Shown here: positions 36,180-62,538 of the stretch, in pieces | How the letters are laid out: every line of letters begins with the position of its first letter | How positions within the stretch are numbered: the stretch's first letter is position 1 | Assembly: GCA_943736015.1 (NCBI GenBank) | Contig: OX031069.1 | Span: 18,977,235 to 19,041,234, forward strand | Direction of reading: 5' to 3' | DNA length: 64,000 bases | DNA from: Tridacna crocea | Taxonomy: Eukaryota; Mollusca; Bivalvia; Cardiida; Cardiidae | The notes under the pieces: generated by a model | Databases searched by the model: none | What the model was told of the DNA's origin: nothing | Seen by the model: the letters and a program-made list of their open reading frames with translations, nothing else | Translations under genes and position numbers: made by a program

Positions 36180-36395
36180 GTTCCCGAAGGACAAATTTAT
36201 AGATTCTACTAAATCGAAGGTAACTATAGACAGCAAATATTGGAACAAAAGAGCTGAGGTTCTCTGACAGAGTTGAAAATATTGTGGGAAAAGGAGAAAT
36301 TGCTTGTTACAAGCAATTTCTCCTTTTTCCACAATATTTTCAAAAGATTTGTCCACAGGCATGTTAAGAATTGTGATTATTTGTAAAAGCGTTCT
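36180..36395 (+). mobile_element. TTAA-A MITE, variant hairpin (36.3 kb)
   Basis: Hairpin AAATTGCTTGTTACAAGC AATTT with arms ATATTGTGGGAAAAGG / CCTTTTTCCACAATAT. The left part is diverged. Right part CAAAAGATTTGTCC, ATTTGTAAAAGCG. Confidence 0.65.
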
Positions 36396-36515
36396 TGAAC
36401 GCCTTTGCCGATTCAGATAAAATTGATTTACAGCACATTCACAGTCGAATAACTATCAGCACATCTACAGTCGAATGGCTTTGTTCTGAAAAAAAAAAAA
36501 TGAAAAATGAAAGAC

Positions 36516-36523
36516 AGTGTTGT

Positions 36524-36554
<31 letters not shown>

Positions 36555-36568
36555 GGAAAGAGGGGGGT
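36516..36568 (+). repeat. (TG)n followed by a 19-G run
   Basis: About ten TG units, then 19 consecutive G, AAAGA and six more G. The G run could form a quadruplex. Run length is also where assembly error is likely. Confidence 0.85.
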
Positions 36569-36954
36569 GCATCAGACTGACATCAGACTGACGAATGATG
36601 TGTTTGAATCTCGTAATGAGTAATGTCAACCCTTGAAGCTACCTTCATCAGGGTTTACAGATAGCTATCATCCTGGATAATTGATATCAATGTGGAACTT
36701 GTTTTACTATCATAGCAATAACTAAAAATTGAGAAAGTTTAACTAAGAATTGAGAAAATTGTCCATTCAACGTTATTGTTCTATCAGCTCAATGATTTTC
36801 TTCAGTGTATTCAATAGGTTAATTTTGTATGTTTATACTGTAGAGGTATCCATTTTTTTTTTTTCAGTTATAGAAATCTATGTATTAAGTCAAAAATTAT
36901 TATCTTTTTCATTTGTTTGATTCACTCGAGGGTTAAAAATTCCCGTAAATAATA

Positions 36955-37125
36955 TAACTTCCGTGACGTTGGAAAAAGAAAATTCTAGTATCCAGCATTT
37001 TCTCCTTGTGCAATATTTTTTTCTATTTTATCAGAGAGCTCAAGATTATTTGTATCAGTTTTAAACGTGTCATCTACAGATGTTCTAAATTTGAAAATTT
37101 GTTGATGGAAAAGGGTCAAAAGAAA
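36955..37125 (-). repeat. Old family A remnant (37.0 kb)
   Basis: GAAAATTCTAGTATCCAGC ATTTTCTCC hairpin remnant and TGTCATCTACAGATGTTCTA. Confidence 0.45.
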
Positions 37126-37297
37126 GCAGGGTGATGAGTGAAAGAGCAAAATAAGGTCATGACGCGGACAGAAAACCGATGATATTCAGACTGAGTATAG
37201 ATTTGAGTTCCTTTGTTTATAGATTTTACATGACAACAAATTCTAGACTGATACAGTGTGATGAATCAGGAATCGACCGTGATTTCTCCTCGCCTAC

Positions 37298-37524
37298 TTA
37301 ACCCATTACCATAACAATCCGGATAGTTGAACCTTAAGACAAAGGCAGTTTGAAAACAATGTAGGGAGAGGGGAAAATTCTATTTTCAGCATTTTCTCCC
37401 TTTTCTACAATGTTTTCTCAAGTTTCAAAAGAAAGTTCCACCATTCCAGCCACATTTAATTTATCATATGCAATGCTTTTTTTTAGGGCCAGTGTTAAAA
37501 TATATCCCATGCGGTAAAAGATAA
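37298..37524 (-). mobile_element. TTAA-A palindromic MITE, diverged (37.4 kb)
   Basis: TTAACCCATTACCATAAC at left, GCGGTAAAAGATAA at right. The hairpin reads GAGAGGGGAAAATTC / CAGCATTTTCTCCC, so the arms have partly lost pairing. Confidence 0.7.
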
Positions 37525-37549
37525 TTCTTTACCAAATGAGAAATTTCAG

Positions 37550-37653
37550 AGTCCGTATTCACCAACCATTCATTACAACGTTTTTAGTCTTATTCTTCAG
37601 AATTTCGTCAATGTGAAAGGAACGGAACTTTTGATTGGCTAAACCAAATGGTT
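37550..37653 (+). mobile_element. Family E element, left half
   Basis: GAGTCCGTATTCACCAACC, GTCTTATTCTTCAGAATTTC and GATTGGCTAAACC. The right half is missing. A family A scrap follows at 37720-37785 (GGGTAGAAAAATCG, AAATGCTGGTAACC). Confidence 0.65.
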
Positions 37654-37971
37654 ATGAACGGCTGGTTATAGTTCTTACCCAGATCTGTTAATCGTGACAA
37701 ATCATATGTCACTCAACTTATGGCGTTTGTCTTTGAAAGGGTAGAAAAATCGTAGTACAGGGCTAAATGCTGGTAACCAAAATTTGGCATGAACATACAA
37801 ATACTGTAAAAGATAAATGATTATAGTTTTATAAAATAAAGATGGAATACTAATAGCTTACAAATACAAAACCATCAATAGTTAAAGGCTCAATACGGTC
37901 GCTCCAAGTATTAGTCACTGGTATAAAATAGATTTTGAAAGTACATCAAAAGTTGGTAGGTTGATCTATCT

Positions 37972-38040
37972 TTATTATTATTATTACCATTATTATTATT
38001 GTTATTACTATTATTATTATTGTTGTTGTTGGTGGTGGTG
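37972..38040. repeat. (TTA)n / (TTG)n / (GGT)n trinucleotide array
   Basis: About 23 trinucleotides grading from TTA through TTG to GGT. Confidence 0.9.
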
Positions 38041-38270
38041 TATTCTACATGATTTTAATATTAATTTTCTTGTCAGCGACTCACACTTGGACATAACGTA
38101 CATTAAAAGACTGTCATCTGCACAATAATGTCCATACTAATAAATGGTTTAATCTAAATTCATCATCACCTTATTTACTTTTGGTAGCTTTTAGGGATTT
38201 TAGTGAGAAATACTTGAGAAAGGAAAAAAATATTTTTTTATGCTTTATCCTTTGATATAATGGTATCCTC

Positions 38271-38499
38271 TTAACCCTTTACTCCATATATACTAATTTC
38301 TACGCATTGCCTGTAGGAGCCTTTTGAAAACATTGTGGCAAAAGGTGAAATTGCTCGTGACGAGCAATTTCACCTTTTGTCACAATGTTTTCTACGCTAT
38401 GAAAAGGTGTCATATACACATAAGAAACGGCTTCATCCTTGCTGTTATTTAGGGTCAATTTGAAATACCTTAGAAAAGCCTTATAGGGTAAAGGGTTAA
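38271..38499 (-). mobile_element. TTAA-B palindromic MITE, copy 4
   Basis: TTAACCCTTTACTCC at left, GGTAAAGGGTTAA at right, TTAA at both ends. Long perfect hairpin ATTGTGGCAAAAGGTG ... TCACCTTTTGTCACAAT. Best-preserved B copy. Confidence 0.85.
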
Positions 38500-39299
38500 G
38501 GTAACAAAGGTTACGCTCCAGTATTTGTTAAAGGTTTGTGAGAATGTAACATAATTGATGATACGCATAAATCATGTGAGAATGTATTCAAAATGGTACA
38601 CGTTTGATGACGTCATATCTGGCCTCTATAAAAGAGCCGAAGTTCGATTGTCAAAAACATCCGTCCCGCTTTGCAAACGCTTCAAAATTGTTTCTTTTAA
38701 CTAAAGGTTACGGAACAATTTCTCTACTCTTGCCGGAAAAAAAATATCTACATTTTTTTTCTTTTATTACTGTTTTGCAAGAATTTTTCATTCACGCCTG
38801 AACCACTTGAATCTGTTGAGAATCTGTTGAGATTACCTCGTCGCATCTATAAACGAATATGAAGTAGGTGACTTTAAAATCTTCTTTGTTAAACTGTGGT
38901 CTGTCAAAAGGAACGATGATTAATACATGTAATCATGAGAAAGCATTTAGACAAAAGAAGAAACTCATTTCGTGCAAATTCTTCTTTGTCAGAATGCTCT
39001 CAAGAGTGGTCTGATGTAAGACAAAAATCGCCTGTCTGTAGTTATCTTTTAAATGTACTGCGCATGCGCAGTTCTGCTAACGATCGGACAGATTTTAGTT
39101 TTGACGTAGACGATTTTACCCTGACATGCAATCTGAATAATGCATGAAGGCTATTAAGATCATCAAAGAACGCCGAAGGAAATAGATTAGAACAAATTCT
39201 GAGTCGGTAACTAGGGACATCTTTTTTGCTTGATGGTACCATGTCAAACAAGACATGAACCCTTTAATTGAGCGATTGAAAATGAGTCAAGCTCAGTGA

Positions 39300-39402
39300 A
39301 AAAGGGGGCTTAATGCATCTGCAAACAGTTTCAACACACGTCAGCCTGCTCAATCCGGTCGATTTTCTGCAACTTAAAGGACCGATATAACTTGTATTTC
39401 AG
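39300..39402 (+). mobile_element. C2 element, left part (split by SINE-S)
   Basis: TAATGCATCTGCAAACAG, a decayed hairpin CACGTCAGCCTGCTCAATCC, TTAAAGGACCGATATAAC. It continues at 39720 after the SINE. Confidence 0.65.
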
Positions 39403-39711
39403 TTGACCAGCCGAGATAGCTCAGTAGGTAGAGCGTAGGACTCGTGAACACAATGTTTCGGGTCACTACAGGTTGTGGTTTCGAATCCCCGGCTGGCAAA
39501 CTAAAAATTACTAAAAGTCTTTCGGATGAGACATTAAAACCTAGGTCCCGTGTGACGGTGCTATACGCCGAGCACGTTAAAGAACCAGGCGAAGCTCTCA
39601 GTAGGTTCGTCCTGTATCCTTGCACTATCCCCCGTAACAACTAACTGTCTTCTGGGGGCGTCGCTCAGACGGGCAACCGGTAGCGACGATAGATAAACGG
39701 AAATAACCAAC
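39403..39711 (+). mobile_element. SINE-S, complete, with 8-bp target duplication
   Basis: tRNA-derived head at 39410-39497 with A box TAGCTCAGTAGGTAGAGCG and B box GTTTCGAATCC, the internal RNA polymerase III promoter. The body has a conserved core TCTTTCGGATGAGACATTA, GGTCCCGTGT and GCACGTTAAAGAACC, then GGGGGCGTCGC and a short tail ATAAACGGAAATAACC. TATTTCAG is repeated exactly at 39395-39402 and 39712-39719. No coding capacity; it needs a partner LINE for movement. The intervening and irregular anticodon region shows that it is not a tRNA gene. Confidence 0.85.
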
Positions 39712-39719
39712 TATTTCAG

Positions 39720-39835
39720 TAGATTGTCGTACAAAAAGGATTTTACGGATATTTGATTATGTAATCACTTGTTTGATGCAACACACTACGGAGATTCATT
39801 GAGCTCCCTTTTGACAGAGCATGGCACCAATATAC
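39720..39835 (+). mobile_element. C2 element, right part (split by SINE-S)
   Basis: ATGTAATCACTTGTTTGAT, GGAGATTCATTGAGC and AGAGCATGGCACC continue the C2 sequence interrupted at 39402. Confidence 0.6.
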
Positions 39836-39876
39836 CCACAACCCACTGACTAGTGCAGTAGCTAAAAGGGACATAT

Positions 39877-39951
39877 CGGGGTTTACTTCAAAAACCTCAT
39901 AACTACAGCTTGAAACAAGCTGTAGTTACGAGGTTTTTCAAGTAAACCGAC
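39877..39951. mobile_element. Family F hairpin, copy 3
   Basis: GTTTACTTCAAAAACCTC with AACTACAGCTTG / CAAGCTGTAGTTACGAGG, then AAGTAAACCGACG. Best-preserved copy. Confidence 0.8.
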
Positions 39952-40132
39952 GATATGTCATAGATAGATCTGTCATAGGGAAAGAAAACTAAGTTTTGAT
40001 GATTTTGCTTATTATTTTTCTTTTTCTAATCTAAACAATTGCAGTAAAAGTAGGGGTTAGCTTGTGAAATGGAACTGTTTCTTTTGCTTCTTGCATGTCT
40101 GCTAGAGTTTTCAACGCTGGATTGGGGTGATC

Positions 40133-40355
40133 CATCACTACACAATCCCTACTGTTGACGACTCTCAGAAAGAAGCCTTTAGAAAACATTGTGGGAAAAG
40201 GAGAAAATGCTGGTAACCAGCATTTTCTCCTTTTCCCGCAATGGTTTCTGCTCTTCACAAGACATATTTCAAATTTTATGTCACTTTTAATTTGTCGTCT
40301 GCAAATGCTTTCGATTTGGACAAGCCTAAAATATCGTCGTTTGGTAATGAGTTAA
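40133..40355 (-). mobile_element. TTAA-A palindromic MITE (40.2 kb)
   Basis: Left end altered (CCATCACTACACAATCCC), right GGTAATGAGTTAA. Hairpin ATGCTGGTAACCAGCAT with full arms. Confidence 0.8.
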
Positions 40356-40435
40356 GGTTGGAGAAGCGGATATATAAATCATATAAGAGCATTTGCTTCA
40401 CAATAGATGTAGACAAAATGTTCAAATACAAAAGA

Positions 40436-40770
40436 CTGATTGATTGATTAATTGTATGGTGTTTAACGCCGTTTTTAACATTACTTCAGTTATATCGCAG
40501 CGGCAAGTGCACCTATCCATGCGTTCCTGTAGTTTCTTTTACCAGTACTTCGCACAATTTTCTTTTCAAGCTACTGGCTGCTTTCTCACTTGATCGTCGT
40601 CGAAACAATGGTCAGTAGTGGGAGAGGTATGAATCCTGTCGCAGTGACTATCATCAATCCTCGGATCGAGACTTGCCGAGCCTGGGTCGGAGCCAGGGGT
40701 AGTAGCCAGGAATCGAACCCCGGACCCCGTGTTCACGCTACAGACTGAGCTATCGGGGCTCGGCCCAAAG
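40436..40770 (-). mobile_element. SINE-M, complete, with 8-bp target duplication
   Basis: Minus-strand head at 40770-40680 with A box TAGCTCAGTCTGTAGCG and perfect B box GGTTCGATTCC. The body runs down to AACGGCGTTAAACACCAT and an (AATC/AATT)n tail ending at 40436. ACAAAAGA is repeated exactly at 40428-40435 and 40771-40778. Same family as copies at 620, 16672, 35735 and 54183. The 77-codon minus frame inside it is a shadow. Confidence 0.85.
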
Positions 40771-41059
40771 ACAAAAGAAGAATAAACTGAAGCCTCCAAT
40801 ATTCAAACACGCAATAATTCAATATAAGATAATTGTTTCTCTCAGTTCTTGTACATACAACTTGTACAGGAAAACTTGAGGTGTTACTCACGAATATAGA
40901 TATAACTAGGGAAAATGTGTATTTTGAAGAATCTGACAGAGGGAATTATGGGTATGAGTAAGGCGCTGCACAGCGTCCAAGCCCTGTATCGCTGAAACTA
41001 ACCAAAATTTATGAATTGAGTGACAAACGATAGACAAATTCATATTGAATAGATATTCA

Positions 41060-41132
41060 AAGCATTGCAGACGACAAGTTAAATAAACGGATTTATCTCT
41101 GAGTTCCTTCAAAAGGCCTTCTTTCAAGGTTC
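41060..41132 (+). repeat. Family A scrap (41.1 kb)
   Basis: TTGCAGACGACAAGTTAAAT and TTCAAAAGGCCTTCTTTC are family A blocks, with the whole hairpin deleted. Confidence 0.5.
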
Positions 41133-41344
41133 TTTAACCCTTATCTACCAAATAACTCATTTGAAAATTTCGATTCGTTAGTATAAACTCAAATATTGCT
41201 ATTCTGAAGTTATGTCTCGGGGTATAATATCTTTTTATCGGACAGTATAGATCCAAGATCAGACTGCACGTTCTGTGCAGTCTGATCTTGATCTACAGTG
41301 TCCGCTAATGGACAGTCAGTCTCGCTTAACAGCCTAAGGGTTAA
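41133..41344 (+). mobile_element. TTAA-D hairpin element, copy 2 (complete)
   Basis: TTAACCCTTATCTACC at left and CAGCCTAAGGGTTAA at right give TTAA with CCCTTA/TAAGGG ends. Hairpin ATCCAAGATCAGACTGCAC / GTGCAGTCTGATCTTGAT with outer CGGACAGT. Confidence 0.8.
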
Positions 41345-41669
41345 AACTCGAGTTGGCGTGGTAAACAGTTTGTCTAAAATACAACAGAGAAAATGCTACC
41401 CTGTTTTCTCAAGACCGCTATCGCAAGCTATGTAGTGTCTTGGGAAATTGAACAAATCTGCATATCCACAATAAACTTTGTTTTAGTGAACAAGATTTCA
41501 TTTTAGAATGATTGGCGTTTTGACACTTCTCTTCCTCTTAATTACTGGAAGTTTTACGGAACCTTTTGAAAAATGATATCAGTTTTCGGGGAGAAAAAAG
41601 TGACAGTTCCGCTCAAGATGTGATCTCGGTGTACAATCAAATCCGTGTTAATACCCTTCGCTTGTTCCT

Positions 41670-41882
41670 TTCCCAAACAATCTCTGGTTTTTAAGACCCT
41701 GAAATGGAAGCCTTTTGAAAACATTATGGGAAAAGGAGAAAATGCTGGTAACCGGCATTTCCTCCTATTCCCACAATGTTTTCCACCCTGCTGGATACAA
41801 ATTTCAATTTTTGAGTTATAGTTACTTTGTCATCTGCATGTGCTTTCATTTTGAACCATACCAAATGAAAATTTAGGACCTG
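41670..41882 (-). mobile_element. TTAA-A MITE, first of three (41.8 kb)
   Basis: CCTTTCCCAAACAATC at left, ACCCTGAAATGGAAGCC, hairpin ATGCTGGTAACCGGCAT, right half to ACCATACCAAATG. Ends degraded. Confidence 0.7.
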
Positions 41883-41889
41883 TCTTCAT

Positions 41890-42117
41890 TCTTTACCAAA
41901 AAATCCCTGGTTTCTACGACCCTGAGATAGAAGACTTTTGAAAACAGTGTGGAAAAAGGAGAAAATGCTGGTAACCGGCATTTTTTTTCCTTTTCCAACA
42001 ATGTTTTCTATCCTGCTGGAAACAAATTTCAATTTCTGAGTTACACTTATTTCAGTGTTGTCTGCAAGTGCTTTCAATTTGGACTTGTATTAAATTTTGT
42101 CGTATGGTAAAGAGTTA
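41890..42117 (-). mobile_element. TTAA-A MITE, second of three (42.0 kb)
   Basis: TTCTTTACCAAAAAATCCC at left, GTATGGTAAAGAGTTAA at right. Centre GGTAACCGGCATT shared with the previous copy, including the same A-to-G change, which suggests recent common origin or conversion between the two. Confidence 0.75.
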
Positions 42118-42119
42118 AG

Positions 42120-42285
42120 TGAAAATATTAGCAGTCTACATATCAAACGTAGCTAAAATGACGCGATTTGTCTCTAGTAACGGAGAAAGCATTGTGGAAA
42201 AATGCTGATCACCAGCATTTTAATTCTTTTTCCAGATTGTTTTTAAAAATCATCCTTCCCAGGTTGTTTAAAGTCGCGATTGTAA
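42120..42285 (+). mobile_element. TTAA-A MITE, third of three, decayed (42.2 kb)
   Basis: GAAAGCATTGTGGAAAAATG and CTGATCACCAGCATTTTAA. Half of the subterminal sequence is lost. Confidence 0.55.
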
Positions 42286-42294
42286 GGCTAATCG

Positions 42295-42511
42295 ACTTGG
42301 CATGAATTCTCTTATACGACGACTTGGTCAGAATTATCCGAAAAGCGACCCTGTCTGAATTTTCTCATATGGCGACTGCATCTAAATTTTCTCATACCCC
42401 AATTCAACCTGAATTTCTGGTACGGGAACCAGTCTGAGTTTTCACTTAGTCAAAATATTTCCATACGGGATTCCGATCTAAGTTATACCAGTGGAGACTC
42501 GGTCTAAATCA
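42295..42511 (+). repeat. 27-bp degenerate minisatellite, about 8 copies
   Basis: Unit approximates CTCATATGGCGACTG plus CATCTAAATTTT. Recurring anchors are CTCATA or TACG, GCGAC and TCTGAATTT. Confidence 0.65.
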
Positions 42512-42549
42512 GAGGGTCCCACGTGACCTTACGTTGGATTTTCAATCTA

Positions 42550-42770
42550 GAGGCACCCCGTTTGATCTCACATTGCCAGCTTTTCAGGACCCTGGGAAAA
42601 GAGCCTTTTGGAAACATTGTGGGAAAAGGAGAAAATGCTGGTGACTTTTCCCAAAATGTTTTCTACGCGATCAAAAAATTAATACACCATTTCAATCACC
42701 ATGAAACTGTGATCTGCAAGTGCTTTCAATTTGGACGAGATTAAAGCTTTTCTCGTCTGGTTAAGGGTTA
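42550..42770 (-). mobile_element. TTAA-A MITE, hairpin partly deleted (42.6 kb)
   Basis: GGACCCTGGGAAAAGAGCC, GTGGGAAAAGGAGAAAATGC then GGTGACTTTTCCC, so much of the second arm is missing. Right end CTGGTTAAGGGTTAA. Confidence 0.7.
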
Positions 42771-43617
42771 ACCGAGTCACATTTTTTTTCTTCTTTTGCG
42801 AAAATGTACTTGGTCATAGATTTAATACGTTTCAGCTAAGAACTCATACTTGTGAATCCATGGACTTATTTGAATAAGTAAAGTACCGCAAGCATTCGGT
42901 CGTTACTATCCAAAGAGCGATATATAATGCCATTTGGTCAACCATTCTGTATTATTTTGTATTAACGATCCAGTTATTTTGTCGTCAGTTTTGTTCACAA
43001 TATGATATTTCGTGATGACGAAATGTACAATTCAGATGAAAATTCAGAAAGTTTGCATATTTCATTATCAAAATACAACTAGTCAACTAATTGGTATAAA
43101 CTCATTTACTAAGACATCACTTTAAAGTCAGTATAATGCAATTTTAGGTACTAAACTTTCCGTTATACCAATATTTGTCCAATAAATTACAAAACAAACC
43201 TTATCTGCGGGATTAATTTTGTCCATTTCCGGTAATGGCGTACTTTCGCTAGAGAAATAATTGAGTGGAAGGAGAAAGATTAGCTTTAAGCGTATTCTGT
43301 GACACCTATCAGAGTTTTGATTGATGACGGTCAATAGTTTTTCAGAAAAAAATGGCAAAATGCTCTCTGTTGTCCCCGAGGGAAATCATATACAGACGGA
43401 TTTCCATTAACTTCCGCTATTTCATAAAATGGCAGTTTGGCAGACGACAATTAAATACTTCATAGAACAATTTGTAAAATATATCTTTTTCTCATTAGAA
43501 AGACTTTAAAATCCATTTATGCCATTAACAGCCAATTTGGACGGTTGTCAAAACGCCATGTTTTCATTTTTTATTTTTGAGGGAAATTTCTGAGGAATAT
43601 GACAAATAGTTTTTACT
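42771..43617. other. No gene seen
   Basis: AT-rich, no supported frame. Confidence 0.4.
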
Positions 43618-45008: not shown

Positions 45009-45239
45009 TTAACTCATTACCACCCGATAAAATTTTAGACTCGTCCAAATTAAAAGCATTTGCAGATGACATAATGAAGGTGACTGAAAAAAAATGAAAT
45101 TTGTTCTGGGAAGGGTAGAAAACACTGTGGGAAAAGGAGAAAATGCTGGTCACCAGCATTTTCTCCTTTTCCCACAGTGTTTTCAAAAGGCTTCTTCCTC
45201 AAGGGTGTCAAAAGTAGGGATTGTGTGGTAATGGGTTAA
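45009..45239 (+). mobile_element. TTAA-A palindromic MITE (45.1 kb)
   Basis: TTAACTCATTACCACCCG at left, GGTAATGGGTTAA at right, TTAA at both ends. The hairpin is perfect with AACACTGTGGG / CCCACAGTGTT in place of the usual ACATTGTGGG / CCCACAATGT. Confidence 0.9.
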
Positions 45240-45573: not shown

Positions 45574-45624
45574 CAAAACTTGCTGTTTGGCTCACAGACT
45601 TTTTTTTATCACAACTTCTGTTTT

Positions 45625-48899: not shown

Positions 48900-50087
48900 A
48901 GAATAAATTGAGTAAGACAGGATATTCAATGAAGTACACGACAGCATAGCATCATTCAAAAACTGAATGTAGGTTAGGAAGATACAATGTTCCAAAATTC
49001 AGTGTATTATAATACAGGCAAGCGTATTTTCAAAGTAAATTTAATGACAGGATACTTAAAGTCAATAAAGTACAATAAAACGTGACACACATCCAGCAAC
49101 TGATTAAGAAAAAAATTTTTGAATAGCAAGTTTCCAGAGTTAATTTAGTACACGGTCGGATAGTCAATGTAAAGCAAGACAATGTAGCATACCGCCGAAG
49201 TCAAGAAACGATATTATATTTCAAAATTGAAGAGTATGAAAGAGGATAGAACAATACAGGATAGCATACTTCCAGAGTGAACTTGAATGAAACGGGATAG
49301 CATATTACTTCCAGAGTAAATTAGAATAAGACAGGATTAAACACTTCCAAAGTCAATTTAGAATCCAGAGTCAATTATAACTAAGACATGATACAATACT
49401 TCCAGAGTCAATTAAGAACAAGACAAGATAGCATACTTCGAGAGTCAGTTCAGAATAAGACATGATAACATACTTCCAGAGTCAATTTAGAATAAAACAG
49501 GATAGCATTATTTAAAAATCACTTCAGAACAAGACAGGATAAAACATTTCCAATGTGAGTTTAGAATAAGACATGATAGCATTCTTCAAAAGTCAATTTA
49601 GAACACGACAGGATTACAAACTCCTAGAGTCAATAAAAACAGAAAAGGATACTATACTCCCAGAGTCAATTCAGAACAAAACAGAATAACATGCATATAA
49701 AGTCAATTTAGGGGAAAAAAAGATAACACCTTTCTAGAGTCAGTTTAGAACAAGACAGGATAACATACTTCAAGACTTAGTTTAGAATAAGACATAATAG
49801 CATTCTTCAAAAGTCAATTTATAAAACGACAGGATTACAAACTCCCAGGGTCAATAAAGATCAAGAAAGGATAACATACTTCCAGTCAATTCAGAATAAA
49901 ACGGGATAACATGCTTCTGGAGTAAATTTAGGAAAGCAAAGATCACATCGTTCCAGAGTCATTTTGAGCGAGACAGGACAGCATGCTTCCAAAGTCGCTT
50001 TAGAGCAAGAAAGGACAAAACACTTTTAGAGTAGTTTAAAAAAAAAAAACAGGATAAAACTCTTCTAGAGTAATCAGGGTTATAAGT

Positions 50088-50307
50088 TCCTAACGCTTCT
50101 AGTGCAACATTGAATAAACTTTATCACCTCCCTTTGTAATGAGAATAAAGTGATTTTAGATTTATAAATGATAATTTTAGGAAGGAAACAGTGCAAAAAA
50201 GTGGCTCGGTTAAAGAAGTACAGTAAAATTCATTTTCAGTCATAGCAAATTTCGTAGGATAATATCAAAATGGATTTAGCTGTTTTCCACAAGGGGTCTA
50301 CTACCTT
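50088..50307 (+). repeat. Dispersed repeat J, copy 2, in minisatellite
   Basis: AAGTGGCTCGGTTAAAG, CATAGCAAATTTCGTAGG, TTTAGCTGTTTTCC and AGGGGTCTACTACCTTAAA match the reverse complement of 14198-14410. Minisatellite units resume directly after it. Confidence 0.65.
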
Positions 50308-50784
50308 AAAAGCAAAACAGGATAGCACCCTCCCTGGGTGAATTTAGAGTATGACAAGATAGCATACTTCATGAGTCAATTCAGAATACGACATGGTGAC
50401 AAACTTCCAGAGTAAATACAAAACAAGAAAGGAGTCGATTCGGAACAAGATAGGATTACATACTTCCAGATTTAATTCAGATCAAAACATGATAACATAC
50501 TTCTAGAGTCAATCTAGAACAAGAAAGGCCTTGAGTCAATTAAAACCAAGTTAGGCCTTGTGTCAATTTAAGACAAGAATAACACACTTCTCTTTTCATC
50601 GTGAAACGTGATAGGATAGCATACTTCAAGGGTCGATTAAGAACAAAGCATGATAACATACTTCCAGAGTCAATTCAGGACATGACAGAACAACATACTT
50701 CCAGAGTCAATTCAGGACATGACAGAACAACATACTTCCAGAGTCAATTTAGCACAAAACAGGAACAAAAGCTTCCTCAGTCAA

Positions 50785-51012
50785 CCAACCCTTTCCCCAA
50801 CGACCTATTTTGGACCCTTCCAAACCGAAAGAGTTTACAGACGACAATTTTAGATTTGGAGAAGATGGCAGAAAGTTCTCAAAAAGGGTAAAAAACACTG
50901 TGGGAAAAAGAAAAATTGCTCGTTACGAGCAATTTCTCCTTTTCCGACAGTGTTTTCAAAAGACTTTTACTGCAGACACGTAAAAACCGGGGCTTGTTTG
51001 GGAAAGGGTTAA
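50785..51012 (+). mobile_element. TTAA-A variant MITE inserted in minisatellite
   Basis: Left CCAACCCTTTCCCCAACG, right GGGAAAGGGTTAA. Hairpin AAATTGCTCGTTACGAGC AATTT with AACACTGTGGG / CGACAGTGTT. Ends carry TTTCCC where most copies have TTTACC. Removing it with one TTAA restores a normal minisatellite unit. Confidence 0.85.
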
Positions 51013-52659: not shown

Positions 52660-52735
52660 CAGTAGCAAAAGGTTTCGGTCCAGGTCGACCTTAGGGGACT
52701 GCTAAGGTTGATCTGGGTCGATACTTTTCAGTATT
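52660..52735 (+). mobile_element. Family C2 hairpin, diverged copy
   Basis: GCAAAAGGTTTCGGTCCAGG and GATCTGGGTCGATACTTTT around a decayed centre TTAGGGGACTGCTAAGG. Confidence 0.5.
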
Positions 52736-52737
52736 CT

Positions 52738-52886
52738 CCAGAATTTTCTATATTAGCAAGTAACAGAACATCTGATTGGCTAAAGCATTCGGTTTAGCCA
52801 ATCAGAATTTATGTTATTACAAATTTAGAAAATCAAGGAGAATAAGACCAGGAATATTCTCAAGAGTGACTGGTGAATACAGTCCC
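52738..52886 (+). mobile_element. Family E element, copy 5
   Basis: Inner palindrome AGTAACAGAACATCTGATTG / CCAATCAGAATTTATGTTAT, right end GTGACTGGTGAATACAGTCC. The left end is truncated. Confidence 0.65.
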
Positions 52887-54273: not shown

Positions 54274-55652
54274 AGCATCCAAATGTAAAAAGACCTGTTT
54301 ATAAAATAACAGTAAATTTCATTTTGACCACGTGAAAATATGGCAATTTTTGTGGCTTTAACGATATGTAAAGGTGCAGTTCGTAAAAGGTTCAGTCAAT
54401 AATGGTAACAACCAACGTCATAGCATACGTCATCGGAGACATTTTAAATCCGCCATTTTCGTTTTAAAAGGTATGTGTTTCAGCTTGTACATTATTGTTA
54501 TTGAAGATCTGTCCAAACAAAGAAGTGCATATGGTACCTGACAACTTTCTTCGTTAGTATACATATATTTTGTTCATTAGTTTCGTTGGTTTTGCAATTA
54601 CCTCCGCACAATTTTCGAAGCCGGTGACACATGTGGGATTTAAAAATAGATTTCGTACACAATAAGTTAAGAATAATTGTGTTGAAGTGTTTCGAGCTAC
54701 AACATCGTTTCATGGCATTTTGATTTCGAGAATAGGACAAACATATTTACCGTCACCCGATGAAGTAGGCATTTTAAGTAAAGTTTAGATACATATATCT
54801 TTTTAAAGAAATTAATCGGCACTTTGCGCACAGAATGGCGGCTATTCCGACACCTCTGATATGACGTAGGTTGTCACCCTTGAGTCAATTGTAGAAAAAA
54901 GAATTTTGAAACTAAAACAGATCCTAACATGCCAAATTATCTGTTTGTTTACATCGACGATGGTCGACGAGCCGACTTTTCGTCGTAAATCTCCGCAGTG
55001 ACGTAGTAGTGACGAAAACAATTCAATGCATCGAAACTAAACTTTCATTCACTTGATCGTTTATCGACATTATAAACAGAAACAACGACACAGGGGTATT
55101 CATTTATCATCAATGCAGGAAGCGTTCACTGCATCGAAATAAGACAACAGGTTCAGAATGAGCAATCTTGCTCTCCGAAGACATAATTATTGAAGTGTAA
55201 CAGTTAGTCCTGTGCACTACGTCATAGCACTAATGAGATGCAATGTTATCACATGACGACCTCGAAGACTGGCCTAGTTCGAATATGATACACGAAAGAT
55301 AACGAAGGTTGTCTCACCAATGTCGTCCCTGAAATCGACGGGTTTCTCCATGCACTTTCGCACACGTACTATATCATGGCAACCAATGCAGTAACTGACA
55401 CGTTCGGGTTTTCTCCGATCTTATATATGTTGTGATTAGTAATCCGCTATATTTTGAGTTATAAACGGTGAAAATTACCTGTTCTTTACTTTTACTGCGG
55501 CTTTAAGTACAAACGAAGTAACCAAATCGACAAACAAACAAAACAAAACAAAATTCGAAAGATATTTTGATTCTGAATTATATGACCAAAAATGTTTCGA
55601 TTTGCATTGCAATTATATAATAAATATTAAACATTCTCTATGAAAAAGAGGG
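54274..55652. other. No supported gene
   Basis: About 1.4 kb of mostly unique sequence with more even base composition than its surroundings. Short frames only (80 codons minus at 54498). Confidence 0.4.
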
Positions 55653-55839
55653 TTAACGTTTTACCACACAGTACCGAATTTTAACGACCGTTAAACAGAA
55701 AGCTTTTGAAAAAATTGAAAACCATGTTTTCTACCCTTTCCAACTCAAATTTCAATTTTTGATTCACATTTATTTTGTCGTCTGAAAATGCTTTGAATTT
55801 GGACTAGTCCAAAATTTTGTCGTTTTGTAAAGAGATTAA
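55653..55839 (-). mobile_element. TTAA-A MITE without left hairpin arm (55.7 kb)
   Basis: TTAACGTTTTACCACACAG at left, TCGTTTTGTAAAGAGATTAA at right. ACCATGTTTTCTACCC is all that remains of the centre. Confidence 0.7.
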
Positions 55840-55844
55840 TTAAT

Positions 55845-55985
55845 GAATCTGCAAACAGTAAAGACTTATATCAGCCTCAGCAGGCTGAAAGGACCGTTCT
55901 ACCTCGGGATTCAATCGATTTTTAGATTTAATGATGTGATGACTTGCTTGGTATAAAGTGTAACACGGAGAGGCAGGAAAACAAA
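55845..55985 (+). mobile_element. Family C2 element, shrunken hairpin
   Basis: TAATGAATCTGCAAACAGTA, TCAGCCTCAGCAGGCTGA (short palindrome), AAAGGACCGTTCTACCTCG and GATGACTTGCTTGGTATAAA. Confidence 0.65.
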
Positions 55986-56009
55986 AGTTAATTTCATTTA
56001 GGGGGAAAA

Positions 56010-56125
56010 TTCCTTATCGAACAGTGTAGATCCAAGATTAGACTGCACTCTCTGTGCAGTCAGATTTTGATCTACACATTCTGCAAAAGGCCCTATAGTC
56101 AGGCTTAGCAGCCTATCGTTTGAAT
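56010..56125 (+). mobile_element. TTAA-D hairpin, copy 4
   Basis: CGAACAGTGTAGATCCAAGA then TTAGACTGCAC / GTGCAGTCAGATTTTGATC, AGCAGCCTATCGTTTGAA at right. Confidence 0.65.
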
Positions 56126-56133
56126 AGTATTTC

Positions 56134-56209
56134 GTTGATTTACTTCAAAACACTCGTAACTACAGCTTGTTTTATGCTGTGGTTACGAGGTCTTTTAAGT
56201 AAACCGACG
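56134..56209. mobile_element. Family F hairpin, copy 4
   Basis: GATTTACTTCAAAACACTCG, ACTACAGCTTG / ATGCTGTGGTTACGAGG, AAGTAAACCGACG. A family A right-end scrap follows at 56222-56275 (TTAGGGTCGTAATAAT, TTTGGTAATGGATTAA). Confidence 0.7.
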
Positions 56210-56349
56210 ATTTGCTGCTTTTTCGAGGCCATCTGCTTAGGGTCGTAATAATATGTGACTGTTTGGTAATGGATTAAAATGGATGTGTCGGACTTTATGC
56301 TACACAACTTTTTAAGCTATTCTATCAGCAAATTCCCAAATGAAATCAT

Positions 56350-56760
56350 GTGGACAATTGCAGAGGTAAACAAAAATGTTTGATCGTTTCCAGTTGCATG
56401 TTTATTTCTTTTTTTATCATCCTCAAAATAAAGAGAAGATGCAGAAAGTATAGTTCTTTTTTCATGAACCTGTTTGTGACTAAAACAAATTTGCGATACA
56501 CGACTCTGAAAAACTATTTGCAAAAAAAACTGGAAATGATTTGTCAGGTACACTTTCGCAACAATCTATGTCACGAGAAGCCAACAGCAATTTACTTGAG
56601 GGTGTCGAAATTTTTTATTGAGGATGTACAGTGGTATGATTTCAAAGACAGTAAATGTAAATTTCGTATGTTTACATTAAAATTTAGCGTTTCGGGATTG
56701 CTGGAAAAAAATGGGCAAAGCATAATCATACAAATAGACGAAACCCATTTCCTGTGTTGA
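56350..56760 (+). pseudogene. Possible Merlin/IS1595-like transposase remnant
   Basis: A 136-codon frame with no close landmark except its ends. RRCRKYSSFF near residue 30 and IIIQIDETHF at 125-134 resemble, respectively, the segment after the zinc-binding region and the first catalytic-Asp motif (V-x-IDE) of IS1595/Merlin DDE transposases. D130 would be the first catalytic residue. The segment between them is roughly the expected length. The frame stops three residues after the motif, so the rest of the catalytic core is absent. Compared only from memory of the family pattern. Could equally be a chance AT-rich frame. Confidence 0.3.
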
Positions 56761-57969
56761 AAATGTAGCTTTCTATTTTTTAAATGGGGGATATGCAAAT
56801 GATTCTATCAATCCCCCCTTTTTTCTTTACAATTTTGACCAGACGTACTAGTAATTTTCTACCAAGCCACATTTTTTCCCAATAACAAATTTGAAACTTC
56901 TTGTCATTCTTTTGGGTCTTAGATATTGATAATTCATTGATTTAAACACATTCCATATTTTTACTTAAAATGAGTAGTTAGATACTTAATTGCCATGAGC
57001 ATCTCAAAAAAGCACAGAAACATAGCGGTTCCAGTATACAGCCAAAATTAGGGGAAGCAATCTGGTCTTTTGCCATTATAAATGGGACATGTTTAAAGTT
57101 ATCTAAATGATATAAACTAGAATTTCCAAATTTCAACAAAACAATAACAACAACAAAAGCCTACCGTTGAAAGTGGACCAATGTTTACAATAATAATAAA
57201 GAATTAAGTCACTAGGTACAAAATGATCTCAAGAATAGAAAAAGAAAATTGGAGTCTTAAATAAAATAGAAATTGTCCCAGTATATAAGGCAACAGGCAC
57301 ATACTCACTATTTAATCAATTGTATTTATTGTTTAAATTCTATGTTCCAAGAGTATCTATCTGACTGAAAACAACAAAGCACTCTCTAAGCCATTCAGAA
57401 TCTTTACTCTCTCGATTTGGAATTTGTTATGTTAATAGGATATGCAGTAATCCGTTTTCAGAATATTTTAGAAATATAAAGAACATAATTTGGATTTTCC
57501 ATTGTGTTTATTTCTAGAAGCAGATTGTTAGTAAACAAGCTATTTACCAATCCATGTTGTCATCTTTCTAGAAAAGACTAATCTGGAATTTTCAAAGCTG
57601 ATATTCTCGGTGGTTTGGGTGGGGGACATTTTGAAGTTAAGACTTGCGGTTTTGAGAAAACAGAATTAGTGAAAAGTGTTGACTTTAAATTGGGATATAA
57701 ATCTGTAAGATGAAATAATTCATTTATTAAACACAGGTTGCTCATATCTGTGCATATTTTGCAAGTTAAAACTATTGTTAATTTAAGTTTTAGGAACCAG
57801 AAATTTCATACTTTTGTAGTCTAAACATAATTCTTAAATTGTCAGTTTTTTCCCAAACTTAACTCTTATTGTACTCTTTTGTCTTTATTTATTTATAATT
57901 ATTGTTCATTGTCTGGTTTTCTGGCTCGTAACACATTAAACCCTTGTTGTCTGGTTTGATAATGTGGTC
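56761..57969. other. No gene seen
   Basis: Very AT-rich, about 1.2 kb, no supported feature. Confidence 0.45.
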
Positions 57970-58198
57970 TTAACCTTTTCCCAAACAATCCGTGTGTTTA
58001 CTGGTCTGGAATAGTAACCTTTTGAAAACATTGTGGGAAAAGGAGAAAATGCTGGTAACCAGCATTTTCTCCTTTTCACACAATGTTTTCTACCCAATCA
58101 TATATAGAAAAATCATCTTTTTAGCAACTGTTAATTTGTCATTTGCAAAATGCTCTCAATTTGGTCTGGTCCAAAATTTGACGTTCGGGAAGGAGTTT
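57970..58198 (-). mobile_element. TTAA-A palindromic MITE (58.1 kb)
   Basis: TTAACCTTTTCCCAAAC at left, GACGTTCGGGAAGGAG at right. Full hairpin ATGCTGGTAACCAGCAT. Terminal TTTCCC form like the copies at 50785 and 62313. Confidence 0.8.
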
Positions 58199-59405
58199 TT
58201 TTTTTTTTCTGCTAAGTATTTATATGCTTTTTTTGTTTCCGAGTTGAAATGGGTTGGACCATAAGTTCTATCCACAAAGAATCGGAATTCTCCAAGATAA
58301 AAAAGTCATCCGTGAAAATAGCAAAATACGGAAGGATGATGGAGATAAAAGGTGGATAGATAATTATTTCAACTGATTAATTTCTTTGATGTGCTTATGA
58401 ACTTCTGATGTAATGACCAATTTCCTGCTAATGCTAAACACGTGTTTAAATCAGCTCTTGCAAACAATAATATTTTACAGAGTTTAACAGAAAAAATGCT
58501 TTTGTTTCTAGGAAAATCGCACAATGAATAATGCGATACCGATAGCTTTTTCGTATGAAAGTTTCGTGTATGTAAGCCGAATTTTGATTAAAGGAACAAG
58601 GTATTATTTCTTGATCAAGATTACATGTACTTGTCACAATTTTGGTCAAACATTAATATTTTCATAAATTTTGCTGTCTCTCAAATGGTAGTGCGATATA
58701 TTTAAATGCCAATTTACGGACGAACCATTTTTTATACGGAATTTGTGAACATACTATTTGATATTTTTTTCCATGAATCTAACCTTAGATTTTTTCTCTT
58801 TTGGTTGTCTGTCATTTCACAATTGCCGTCTCTAAAAAGATTTTCGAGAGATGTTTATCTTTCAATGCTTATTTCTTATTTCAATAGAATCTGAACATGA
58901 GACAGTGCAGCCATCCCATACTGCCTATGAATATTCAGGGATAGGTTTAACCTAAGATAGATAAATTTGATTTAAGGCTGCAGGAGTAAGGGTGATTTGA
59001 AGCATCAGCAGAATGTGTATCACTTCAGGTGCAGCCTCTAAGTATATAATTTATGGTCATTTCGAAGGCCTTAAAATTGAATCAAAGTAGGTTGTTCATT
59101 TCGGTCTGCATTTTCAATGTTGGTAGTTTGAAAACTAAGAATGGCTCATTACAGCCTTTTCGCGGATGGAACTCGGACGACCATTGCTTCGTATATTTCT
59201 AATATCATGACCCTTTCCGGCATGTAATGAAATATCAGAAAAATACTGGAATACACTACAACTGTGTCGTTGGTTTATGATCTAGTAACAGATTCCATGG
59301 TATCATTTACACAAAAAAAGAGGTCCAAGGACGAAACCCTGAGGTGCTCCTGCTTTTCAGGGAAGAAAAAAGGGGATCCTATGCTTGGATTACAACATTC
59401 TGCTT
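58199..59405. other. No gene seen
   Basis: AT-rich, short frames only, no recognised repeat. Confidence 0.4.
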
Positions 59406-59633
59406 TTAACTCTTTACCACACGAGAAAATTTTAGACTGGTCCAAATTGAAAGCATTTGCAGACGACAAAATAAAGGTGACTGAAAAATTGAAATTTGTG
59501 CCGGGAAGGGTAGAAAACACTGTGGGAAAAGGAGAAAATGCTGGTTACCAGCATTTTCTCCTTTTCCCATAGTGTTTTCAAAAGGCTTTTTCTCAGGGGC
59601 GTCAAAAGTACGGATTGTGTGGTAATGGGTTAA
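59406..59633 (+). mobile_element. TTAA-A palindromic MITE (59.5 kb)
   Basis: TTAACTCTTTACCACACG at left, GGTAATGGGTTAA at right, TTAA at both ends. Hairpin with AACACTGTGGG / CCCATAGTGTT. Close to the family consensus. Confidence 0.9.
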
Positions 59634-59784
59634 CTGATATTTCAAGTACAATAGACGTTCGTACTACTTTTTCTGTTTTGCATGTACGAACGACACATTC
59701 AAAACATTTTGCAAGATACCGGATAATGAATTGTCATAATCTGACAGCATCTATCTCTAAAGTCTGTTAAGTGTGTCAATTGTG

Positions 59785-60020
59785 TACTGAACGACCAAAT
59801 TGTAAACTTGTCCTCATTGTGAAAGCATTGACAAACACCAAATTAGATGATACTTATGTGATGACATTGGTCTTTTAAAAGATCGAAAACTTTGTAAGAA
59901 AAAAGAGAAAAGGTTGGAAAAAATGGTTTATTAAAATTCTGTCCCTTTCCCACAGTGAAATAATTCTTCTAATTGTTATGCACATGAAATAAAAAAAAAA
60001 TGCTTGTTCAACCATAAAGG
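59785..60020 (+). repeat. Old family A remnant (59.9 kb)
   Basis: GAACGACCAAATTGTAAAC, TTGTGAAAGCATTGACAAAC, AAAACTTTGTAAGAAAAAAG. Hairpin not preserved. Confidence 0.45.
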
Positions 60021-61257
60021 GTTCACACATCATCTTGAATGTTTTTTATACTAAATTTATGTCGAACAACAATGCATCTGTGCTTTATGTATTTTGTCAT
60101 GCGGCAAAGAACTTCTTAATTGCAGTTCGAGGAAAAAACAAAGACCATTTGGCAACACAAAAACAATCAGAAATCTAGTAATTACCCGTCAGACCATTCG
60201 ATAATCACAAACATGCAATTTACCAACCAGACTAATCCAATTCTGGGAGATGACATTTTTCCTATTGCCTAAGAACAGAAAATAAAAACTTGATAGTTTC
60301 CTATTTCTGGTAGTATTTAAATTCATTTTTTTTCCCTTAACTTGCTGTTTTTTTAATTAAGTATGTCTGTGTGCACGGTCCGCTTTTTCTTATTATATAA
60401 TAGCAAACTTTGTGTCTGAATCCACTTGATAACATCTCAGTAAGATCTACGATGCCACTGTTTTCATCCGAAATTTGTATCATCGCGCAAGAACAAAACT
60501 GTTTTATAACTTTTGAAGTCTTCATGTATTTAAAAATGATACGCATATGTCCTTAGGGTCGGAGGTTTTAATTTTTTATTTCTGTTTTGCTGAGAAGATT
60601 TGTTCTTTATGTACACGTCATATTTTGCGTTCTTATTTACATACATAAAGGCAACGGTATGGATATCACAGAATTCGAAATAAGCGTTTATGTACATTTC
60701 AGAGTAACTTTTATGTAAAATTTATTTAAGTTTTGCGTAGTAACTACTTTTAAAGTCCAAATTATCTAAACTTTATTTGGATACACACTAATGTCAGTAT
60801 ATTATATGATGCGTTTTATAAACAGAATCAAGAAGGACAGAAAACAAACATTCACAAATCACCGGTGCATTTTGAGTATCTCGAACAATTGATTAAATAA
60901 TTTCTTGGTCAAGAAGACATTATGTTCATATTTTTTTCTACTTACAAAAAATCTGTAGTTGGTGGTATTATTTTCTACGATAGTTGTAAATATTTTGGAC
61001 AAAAAAAGAGTGGTATTCATTTTTGATCAAGATGAATTTGCAATACTTACTTATAAAAACGACATTCTCATGAACTGTGTAACTGTTATTCTTGCACGAT
61101 GAGTATTTCGTGTGATGGTAATCTGCAATGTATTTCAGCTGTTTTTTGTTCAAAATCGACATTTTCTCTTAACTTTCTTTTTTTTCCTTTCAATTCACGT
61201 ATATTACGATACTACAGTTGTGTGTAATTGTTAGCAATTCTTTATTTTTATATACCA
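60021..61257. other. No gene seen
   Basis: Very AT-rich, no supported feature. Confidence 0.45.
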
Positions 61258-61390
61258 GGGCCTATATTCACCAACCATTTTCAAGAACGTTCTCAATTTT
61301 ATTCTCCAAATTTGTAAGTAACACAACTTCTGATTGGCTAAACCATTCGGTTTAGCTAATCAGAAGTTGTGTTACTTACAAATGTAGCAA
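61258..61390 (+). mobile_element. Family E element, copy 6
   Basis: CCTATATTCACCAACC at left. Perfect inner palindrome GTAAGTAACACAACTTCTGA / TCAGAAGTTGTGTTACTTAC with CCATTCGGTTTAG at the centre. Right TIR missing. Confidence 0.75.
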
Positions 61391-61539
61391 CTAACTACAT
61401 TGTGCTGTTATCAAGCGATGATGGCCTTGTCGTGCATCGCTGTTGACCTTTACAACTCTGAATGAAACAGACCTTTCCAATTTGAAAGAAACAGTTAAAA
61501 TGTTACTATTTCACGGTTGTTTATAGCAACAATACGAAA

Positions 61540-61620
61540 CAAAGTACCGGATAACGTTGTTCCAAGATCATATGCAGGTTGTTTGCAGTCTGATAATGAT
61601 CTACATTGTTTGATAAAGTA
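61540..61620 (+). repeat. Decayed family D hairpin
   Basis: TTCCAAGATCATATGCAGG and GCAGTCTGATAATGATCTAC. Arms no longer pair fully. Confidence 0.45.
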
Positions 61621-61642
61621 TGCTGAAGCTAGCGCTGTAAAT

Positions 61643-61859
61643 AGCTCTTTACTTCACAATTTCGAACTCTGACGACCTCAAAGACAATGACTTGGAAAGA
61701 TTGTGGGAAAAGGAGAAAACGCTGGTTACCAGCGTTTTCTCCTTTTCCCAAAATGCTTTCTATTCTTTTTCAGTCAATTTCCTGATAAGAGCCACATTTA
61801 ACTTCTCATCTGCAAATACTTTCTACTTTAATGAGTCTAAAATTTTGTTAAAGAATTAA
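61643..61859 (-). mobile_element. TTAA-A MITE with compensated hairpin (61.7 kb)
   Basis: GCTCTTTACTTCACAATTTC at left, TTGTTAAAGAATTAA at right. The hairpin reads ACGCTGGTTACCAGCGT where most copies have ATGCTGG / CCAGCAT, a paired T-A to C-G swap. Confidence 0.8.
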
Positions 61860-62312
61860 ATAGGTAGTTAGGTGTTCGGTTTATAATCAGTAAAGTTTTG
61901 CCCCTCGCCCCTTCTAGTGTTGGTAAGGTCTGAGGGAGTCCCGCAGAGAAAAGGGTTTTCATCAACGTATGTAAACCCACAAGAAAGCTACAAACACAAT
62001 TATGAACATGGTTAAGCAAATGTGATTAATTCTAGGTGAGCTGCTGTACAGAAGTCGTGATCCTGCGGTCAGAATAAATATCTGCTAACGGAAATGCAGT
62101 TCACAAAACCTGAGGAGTGTGTGTGTGGTGTCTTTTTGTGCGGAGAAAATTTCTCATCAGTTATTTCTGCTGCAGAGGACGTATTGCGTCTTGCAGCAGA
62201 CAATATATGGACACTTTGTATCTGTCGCAGAAATATAATTTACATGATATAAATCTATTTATACGGTAGTGTTATACTATCTCCAGTAGAAACTTTAGGC
62301 CCAAAATGTCTG

Positions 62313-62538
62313 TTAACCGTATCCTAAACAAGCCCTTGATTTTACGTGTCTGCGTAACAAGTCTTTGGAAAACACTGTGGGAAAAGGAGAAATTGCTCGT
62401 TAGCAATTTCTCCTTTTCCCACAGTGTTTTCTGCCCGTTTGGGTACTTTTCTGCCATTCTTATGAAAGTTAAAAATTGTCGTCTGCAAACTCTTTCAATT
62501 TGGAAGAGTCTTAAATTTGTCGTTTGGGAAAGGGTTAA
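62313..62538 (-). mobile_element. TTAA-A variant MITE (62.4 kb)
   Basis: TTAACCGTATCCTAAACAAG at left, TTTGGGAAAGGGTTAA at right. Short perfect hairpin AAATTGCTCGTTAGCAATTT with AACACTGTGGG / CCCACAGTGTT. Same subfamily as 50785-51012. Confidence 0.85.

Follow-up and report, generated by a model that had tools for sequence, protein, structure and literature searches.

Lineage-level paired changes in the arms of an abundant palindromic DNA element of Tridacna crocea

The window analyzed here is a 64,000-nucleotide stretch of the Tridacna crocea genome (GenBank assembly GCA_943736015.1, contig OX031069.1, positions 18,977,235 to 19,041,234 of the forward strand; G000:C14:18977235-19041234), in which copies of a short repeated element built around a palindrome, here termed family A, were found. 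Analysis of these copies together with others of the same genome (1.05 Gb in 31 contigs) revealed that, in the sample, paired changes at five stem positions of the palindrome are inherited lineage differences, while one-sided changes at these positions are mostly private and scattered. An earlier note on the window, made from the letters alone, had claimed that the arms of several such hairpins changed in matched pairs, and had offered arm-to-arm correction or selection on a folded molecule as the cause. The matched pairs are real, but a tree built from the flanks only and groups defined by the flanks showed that most of them belong to whole lineages by inheritance and did not arise in the individual copies cited.

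Paired changes and lineages of family A

Alignment of 33 window copies, extended by 60 bases past each match, gave a non-coding unit of ~227 bp. From end to end, TTAA and CCCTTTACC... are followed by a left flank of ~50 bp and by two mirrored arms of 33 nt that enclose a single centre base; a right flank of ~100 bp then leads to ...GGTAAAGAG and TTAA. The flanks on both sides of this central palindrome of 67 bp are non-palindromic. The exact 31-base core of the palindrome, GGAGAAAATGCTGGT-N-ACCAGCATTTTCTCC, occurs 191,599 times genome-wide, as counted without alignment. A profile search recovered 264 copies in 314 kb (the window and 25 stretches of 10 kb at preset places) and, once five extra stretches (of the 30 fetched) picked beside dense loci were included, 339 copies in 364 kb, equal to 16.6% of bases. 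In the 314 kb, the core was exact 41 times (the genome-wide count predicts 57), and had one mismatch 25 times and two mismatches 20 times. Two sets were used for counting: 189 of the 264 copies, each keeping 25 or more of the 33 arm pairs, and 229 copies from the 339, of which 239 passed the same threshold before near-identical ones were removed (later counts exclude the 100 copies not having both arms, and 10 near-duplicates). The window itself holds 50 copies, and 32 of the 34 that keep at least 25 arm pairs carry at least one mismatch (range 0 to 14), showing that the hairpins listed in the earlier note were a selective set.

The 189 copies contained 132 complementary double changes against 38 expected from the column frequencies, confirming that the arms have moved together beyond what independent mutation would give. 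Six recurrent types accounted for 83 of the 132, namely 61 C-G (21), 79 T-A (17), 84 C-G (15), 67 C-G (10), 73 A-T (10) and 74 T-A (10). Haplotypes over these six sites were symmetrical across the arms, with 43 copies of the main type, 10 with 61C alone, 10 of a four-fold type B and 3 of a type C, besides many one-sided ones. Clustering of the larger set gave lineage A (131 copies), lineage B (13) and lineage C (7), with 78 copies in smaller clusters (hereafter unclassed). The difference from the overall consensus was 3% in flanks and 0 in arms for lineage A, 52% and 14% for B, and 31% and 9% for C.

The earlier note had suggested that covariation across the stem be compared with the non-palindromic flanks, and in the sample the arms covary and the paired states track the flanks. 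On a FastTree phylogeny of the 189 copies from flank columns only, with 60 label shuffles per state, paired states were gathered in few changes: 61C/113G had 24 carriers and 10 changes (shuffled mean 23.0), 79T/95A 13 and 3 (12.7), 84C/90G 8 and 5 (8.0), 67C/107G 5 and 1 (4.9), and 74T/100A 5 and 1 (5.0). One-sided changes at these positions required nearly one change per carrier, with carriers and changes for the left and right arm, respectively, of 22-20 and 11-11 at 61, 14-12 and 11-10 at 84, 9-8 and 4-3 at 79, 19-18 and 26-23 at 67, and 11-11 and 8-8 at 74. The paired 73A/101T state, present in 10 copies, was scattered over the flank tree (8 carriers, 7 changes), which indicates that it is recurrent.

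Flank-defined groups of at least four copies, taken at seven depths, gave the same picture. Each group consensus, in which positions without a 60% majority were skipped, had 0 unpaired arm positions, and compared with the largest group there were 0-4 paired and 0 one-sided arm differences alongside 6-73 flank differences. Complementary pairs are thus the sole arm differences between the groups; they may have arisen in one step. Of the five changes at lineage level, four (67 G>C, 74 A>T, 79 A>T and 84 G>C) are swaps of the two partner bases, unlike the transitions expected from stepwise repair through G-U.

The hairpin states cited in the earlier note read as it had claimed, with TTGCTTG/CAAGCAA in 36273-36343, TTGCTCG/CGAGCAA in 50892-50956, ACGCTGG/CCAGCGT in 61683-61771, and TTGCTCG with the shortened arm AGCAA in 62368-62431; the outer stem variant ACTGTGGG/CCCACAGT was likewise present in 45118-45184 and 62368-62431. 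Given the clustering on the flank tree and the flank-defined groups, the palindromes at 50892, 62368 and 45118 represent lineage states. The copy with the palindrome at 36273 has its own paired states at stem positions 59 and 84, and the paired change of the copy at 61683 occurred once among the 189 copies. Lineage B, with four paired changes, has a single window copy within the span of the earlier note, at 38272-38498. The window copies concerned are as follows.

36175-36393, minus strand: relative of lineage C with its own paired states TTGCTTG/CAAGCAA and AAATATTG/CAATATTT; palindrome 36273-36343, 1 mismatch in 33 pairs
50787-51011, minus strand: lineage C, TTGCTCG/CGAGCAA; the outer stem ACTGTGGG/CCGACAGT has since gained a mismatch; 4 mismatches in palindrome 50892-50956
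62315-62537, plus strand: lineage C; arms 62368-62397 and 62402-62431 pair over all 30 nt, with 3 nt absent beside the centre; centre base T
61643-61857, plus strand: paired change ACGCTGG/CCAGCGT, centre base T; inverted repeat 61683-61771, 4 mismatches in 33 pairs
45010-45238, minus strand: lineage A, paired 61C/113G type, ACTGTGGG/CCCACAGT; palindrome 45118-45184, 0 mismatches
38272-38498, plus strand: lineage B, arms GTGGCAAAAGGTGAAATTGCTCGT / ACGAGCAATTTCACCTTTTGTCAC; one mismatch (G.T)
367-505, plus strand: lineage B, partial match to the element profile
18347-18478, minus strand: lineage B, partial match to the element profile
21215-21291: lineage B, partial
31132-31348, plus strand: typical lineage A, ATGCTGG/CCAGCAT; 1 mismatch
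58024-58090, plus strand: typical lineage A central palindrome (element 57971-58197), with 1 mismatch between the two 33 nt arms, which enclose a single base
59407-59632, minus strand: lineage A, paired 61C/113G type; 1 mismatch
33506-33732, minus strand: lineage A, centre T not A in element orientation; 2 mismatches

Decay of single copies, the centre base and the rate of arm change

In the sample, the pairing of inserted copies decays with age at nearly the rate expected of independent mutation. When the 131 copies of lineage A were divided into thirds with flank divergences of 0.093, 0.153 and 0.248, arm mismatch rose from 0.057 through 0.104 to 0.120, at or somewhat below the 0.083, 0.110 and 0.126 expected under independence. 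With the paired 61C copies removed, the mismatch was 0.065, 0.115 and 0.118 against an expectation of 0.074, 0.119 and 0.123. In these 116 remaining copies a small excess of paired changes persisted, with 18 complementary doubles where 500 shuffles made within age thirds gave 7.4 +- 2.6 and at most 16, whereas non-complementary doubles (9) equalled expectation (8.8). The 18 paired cells stood among 218 left-changed and 199 right-changed cells. Joint changes numbered 27 at partner columns against 15.3 expected and 416 at non-partner arm columns against 365.7; slid partners gave 12-19 against 10-14 and mirrored flank columns 171 against 164. Rare arm copying in single copies could account for this residual paired excess, as could small unsampled lineages.

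In addition, the centre base changed from A to T many times independently in the sample. Lineage A had A in 105 copies, T in 17, G in 4, C in 4 and one gap, so that A>T reached 17 of 130, compared with a mean of 2.7% at its less variable A columns; the centre was G in 11 and C in 2 copies of lineage B, and A in 5, T in 1 and C in 1 of lineage C. In lineage A and the unclassed copies, T accounted for 35 of the 52 changes at the centre, where 34% would be expected (P 1e-6). Carriers of centre T in lineage A were unclustered, with a share among five nearest neighbours of 0.12 against 0.116 at random, and centre T was among the 17 of 53 alleles of 9-20% frequency that do not cluster (the other 36 do). 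The flank tree likewise gave 24 changes for 27 carriers (shuffled mean 25.3), and the counts of centre T by flank-divergence quarter of lineage A (2, 5, 3 and 7) rose only loosely with age. Copying of the centre from the opposite strand would turn A into T and G into C, and scattered A>T changes are what inversion of the spacer predicts.

The arms also change more slowly than the flanks. The ratio of arm to flank change was 0.64 in the closest pairs of copies and 0.44-0.57 in others, with pairs selected on odd and measured on even flank sites. That slower arms might be an artefact of selecting copies by their arms was rejected, as the arms were still slower when a profile of the 3' flank alone was used (196 matches, 193 usable and 157 kept, 36 being dropped with too few 5' flank or arm columns aligned). 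Arm change was then 0.36-0.48 of the 5' flank rate; arm mismatches accumulating at the flank rate, which according to the earlier note would speak against coordinated arms, were accordingly not what the sample revealed. Part of the gap in rate is lineage structure in the flanks. Under the strictest filter, with CpG and lineage-diagnostic columns removed, arms of lineage A differed by 5.1% and flanks by 9.0 and 9.7%; no clear difference appeared in the small lineages (B, arms 1.6% against flanks 3.3 and 1.3%; C, 0 throughout). Since unbiased copying between arms should not reduce mean divergence, the source elements are probably under constraint in the sequence of the arms as such.

Explanations for the matched arms

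We regard it as probable, with considerable doubt, that source elements re-copy one arm from the other by template switching, that copies inherit the result and then decay, and that constraint on the arms also acts. The palindromes of a few amplifying sources would be re-perfected by copying one arm from the other, through template switching of the polymerase at the extruded hairpin, during replication or during repair of a transposition gap. A mutation in one arm of a source would be either erased or copied across before the source spawns copies, and a template switch on an already perfect hairpin would leave just an inverted centre base. The arm sequence would be constrained in the sources, presumably since the palindrome aids transposition. 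Template switching is the simplest way to explain at once the pairing seen between lineages, the swaps, the flips of the centre base and the small paired excess that remains in single copies, and arm-to-arm correction is the better of the two causes offered in the earlier note, acting mainly along source lineages and with only a small excess in single copies.

A more far-reaching form of this account, which we offer tentatively and think unlikely, is that the palindrome is self-renewing, with each round of amplification re-copying one arm (by snap-back synthesis at the centre in the course of gap repair after excision), and that sources would for this reason always have a near-perfect hairpin even though their inserted copies decay. 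Opposite copying directions from one imperfect ancestral hairpin would then have given lineage A (left arm), lineage B (right arm) and lineage C (a mixture, two central positions from the right arm and two outer ones from the left), and would account for strict swaps in four of five lineage changes.

Several observations weigh against template switching in the sources as the cause. Scattered A>T changes were also found at columns 138 (12%) and 144 (20%), both junctions of A/T runs, so the centre is not unique, and the spacer is a single base. Centre flips and private paired changes do not co-occur in the same copies (P 0.71). The paired excess was weak in the 78 unclassed copies (53 against 39.5 +- 5.3, maximum 55) and not clear in the small lineages B (1 against 0.4) and C (1 against 1.0), and some of the "private" pairs may be small unsampled lineages. 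Raw genome-wide counts were 198 for the paired 75/99 change alone and 186 for two non-partner 75/81 arrangements together, figures that are not normalized by the count at 81. The one-sided changes were not without clustering on the flank tree, as the right-only change at 79 (4 carriers, 3 changes) fell below all 60 shuffles and the left-only changes at 84 and 79 stood at 0.05, and lineage B (13 copies) has one fixed unpaired position, 66/108, with G.T. Moreover, by our own reasoning, unbiased copying from arm to arm leaves mean arm divergence unchanged, and the 9% (C) and 14% (B) by which arms differ, against 31% and 52% in flanks, mean that constraint must act too; such constraint could in principle also produce the pairing by itself.

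Selection alone would mean that only elements with matched arms amplify, for example because each arm serves as one half-site for a dimeric transposase or host factor, or because the hairpin itself is needed, and that a one-sided mutation would leave a source poor until a second, compensating one followed. We consider this, the main rival, rather unlikely, although it would suit arms that are 2-4 times less diverged than flanks between lineages and for the arm to 5' flank ratio of 0.36-0.48 in copies picked by the 3' flank. It also has parallels in the conserved internal regions of coral piggyBac-type elements (PMC2872659) and in the palindromic sites bound by piggyBac-family transposases (PMC11707139), and the unpaired G.T of lineage B could be an intermediate. 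However, the swaps that make up four of the five lineage changes would need two transversions through a like-base mismatch, and apart from that G.T no lineage with an unpaired intermediate was present in the groups examined. The small paired excess stands in scattered copies on which selection is unlikely to act, and the centre flips are not predicted by selection.

Correction from arm to arm in every inserted copy as the main mode of change is very improbable. The paired excess in lineage A (18 against 7.4), the scattered paired 73A/101T copies and the 3 of 20 two-mismatch cores that are partner-complementary (0.22 expected; small numbers, with lineage states included) would suit it, but mismatches in 32 of the 34 window copies with both arms do not, the near-independence relation between mismatch and flank divergence speaks strongly against it, and only 18 paired cells were found among 218 left-changed and 199 right-changed ones. 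Selection on a folded RNA, as a small-RNA precursor or structured transcript, seems more improbable still. A long near-perfect hairpin could be transcribed (palindrome 45118-45184 folds at -38 kcal/mol, z -13.7, far beyond chance, computed as DNA, with a full-length stem and a three-base loop), but one-sided changes were evenly divided on the plus strand, with 236 (A>G 80, C>T 156) preserving G-U pairing and 236 (T>C 90, G>A 146) destroying it, a well-matched control since the two arms are mirror contexts. The window also gave no Rfam family at gathering score, and neither result supports a structured RNA family or the folded-RNA cause offered in the earlier note. An artefact of assembly or alignment, with read consensus or the profile forcing the arms to match, is scarcely credible: palindromes are difficult for some sequencing chemistries and a profile alignment leans toward its own consensus, but the paired states track non-palindromic flanks, mismatches are freely seen, and the exact cores were counted without alignment.

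Classification, known systems and other repeats

Judging from its ends and structure, family A is a very abundant non-coding DNA element with the anatomy of a piggyBac-type miniature inverted-repeat transposable element (MITE). Similarity between copies ends at TTAA on either side, with mixed bases beyond, and the consensus ends TTAA|CCC...GAG|TTAA point to TTAA target duplication as in elements of this type; the unit is also short, non-coding and of high copy number, as they are. The tip motif CC[C/T]T that defines piggyBac-type MITEs (PMC2872659) begins the terminal inverted repeat, except that the right end of lineage A (CTCT) is one base off. The left tip reads CCCTTTACC, and the right tip, read inward, CTCTTTACC in lineage A and CCCTTTACC in lineage B. 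Exact TTAACYC and GRGTTAA tips were found at both ends of 59, at one end only of 70 and at neither end of 40 of the 169 near full-length copies among the 339. In the window, the hairpin centre and part of one or both arms are lost in the copies at 12169-12374, 29983-30188, 42562-42770 and 55655-55834, as expected if hairpins are deletion-prone. Another fetched stretch (L021, 813-8376) holds five family A copies with identical flanks at ~1.85 kb spacing, and the element there seems to be part of a tandem array. A search of IMG/VR gave no match to the 31-base core, though records of the same genome are possibly excluded there.

Family A resembles the CMITEs of Acropora corals (PMC2872659) in being short and non-coding and in its TTAA duplication, CCCTTT-type ends and tandem arrays. 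The internal region of CMITEs is more conserved between families than the ends, as it is in family A, where arms differ by 9% and 14% and flanks by 31% and 52% in lineages C and B; CMITEs thus provide a precedent for a piggyBac-type MITE with an internal region better conserved than its ends. They differ in being about 100 bp long and in having about 1600 copies estimated in A. millepora, and the likeness is one of description. The portion of PMC2872659 drawn on describes neither a central palindrome nor paired arm changes. The ends are also like those of piggyBac and piggyBat in their TTAA target sites and palindromic transposase sites (PMC11707139), although those palindromes are short and near the tips, while the 67 bp palindrome of family A lies about 50 and 100 bp from the ends.

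Template switching at inverted repeats, in which one arm is copied from the other, spacers invert at perfect hairpins and paired substitutions arise in one step, has been reported in ways similar to those proposed here. In yeast, it yields both arm homogenization and spacer inversion (PMC8604942), and it has been proposed for RNA stems (PMC8794818), where a pair change joined with loop inversion is called extremely rare. Those studies concern yeast genes and RNA genes, respectively, whereas the present case is a mobile-element hairpin with many copies and with flanks that give an independent tree; moreover, unlike theirs, the paired changes of family A lie mainly between lineages, and a one-step origin for them is inferred. 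The perfect inverted repeats of nematomorph mitochondria (PMC6649704) likewise have arms that stay identical while the sequence varies between species, with template switching discussed as a possible cause, but they are coding organelle sequences under protein selection and are not mobile. A literature search of titles and the starts of abstracts found no description of a piggyBac MITE with such a palindrome or of paired changes in MITEs, and a search of literature text for the letters of the arm sequence gave a zebrafish paper as its sole match. What is new is a palindrome-centred piggyBac-type MITE with arms that differ in matched pairs between lineages; the MITE type and template switching are known.

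It is debated whether hairpins keep their pairing through stepwise change under selection or through single template-switch events. Here the hairpin of family A is present very many times in a single genome, its inserted copies are presumably for the most part not under selection, and its non-palindromic flanks record both age and ancestry. Family A thus makes the question of template switching countable, and the rates at which arms are copied, single arms mutate and the centre flips could all be measured in one system. It also provides a caution that covariation within a repeat family can be ancestry and is no sign of a functional RNA.

Other repeats were observed besides family A. A second palindromic family, GTCTCGGATCAGCCTGCGC-AGTCC-GCGCAGGCTGATCCGAGAC, is present in the window at 936-1016, 15893-15973, 16177-16257, 25288-25368 and 31433-31513, and we take hairpins like these to be known from bivalve genomes; its letters gave no match in the literature text. 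In two runs that checked its longer spacer, with 18 of 80 and 19 of 65 places left after filtering, one sample copy (L015, about 7493) had the spacer inverted (GGACT) in the orientation favoured by the flanks (margin 17 bits). Candidate inversions at window positions 25315 and 16192 were dropped because their orientation was contradictory between runs. A third inverted-repeat family (AGTAACAGAACTTCTGATTGGCTAAACC and its mirror) lies at 30587-30671, 52732-52816 and 61290-61394, with 46 nt arms of 87% complementarity at 61299-61394.

Among coding sequences, the window contains a 1050 aa open frame at 8247-11399 on the plus strand with a reverse transcriptase domain (Pfam RVT_1, E 1e-35), which by its domain would be like that of a long interspersed nuclear element. 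In another stretch (L003, G000:C2:5000001-5010000), adjacent frames at 2968-8698 on the minus strand match family B DNA polymerase (DNA_pol_B_2) and Pox_A32, presumably marking a Maverick/Polinton-like element. Lastly, tandem arrays occupy the window at 22985-23476 (33 bp units) and 49310-50801 (units of about 37 bp).

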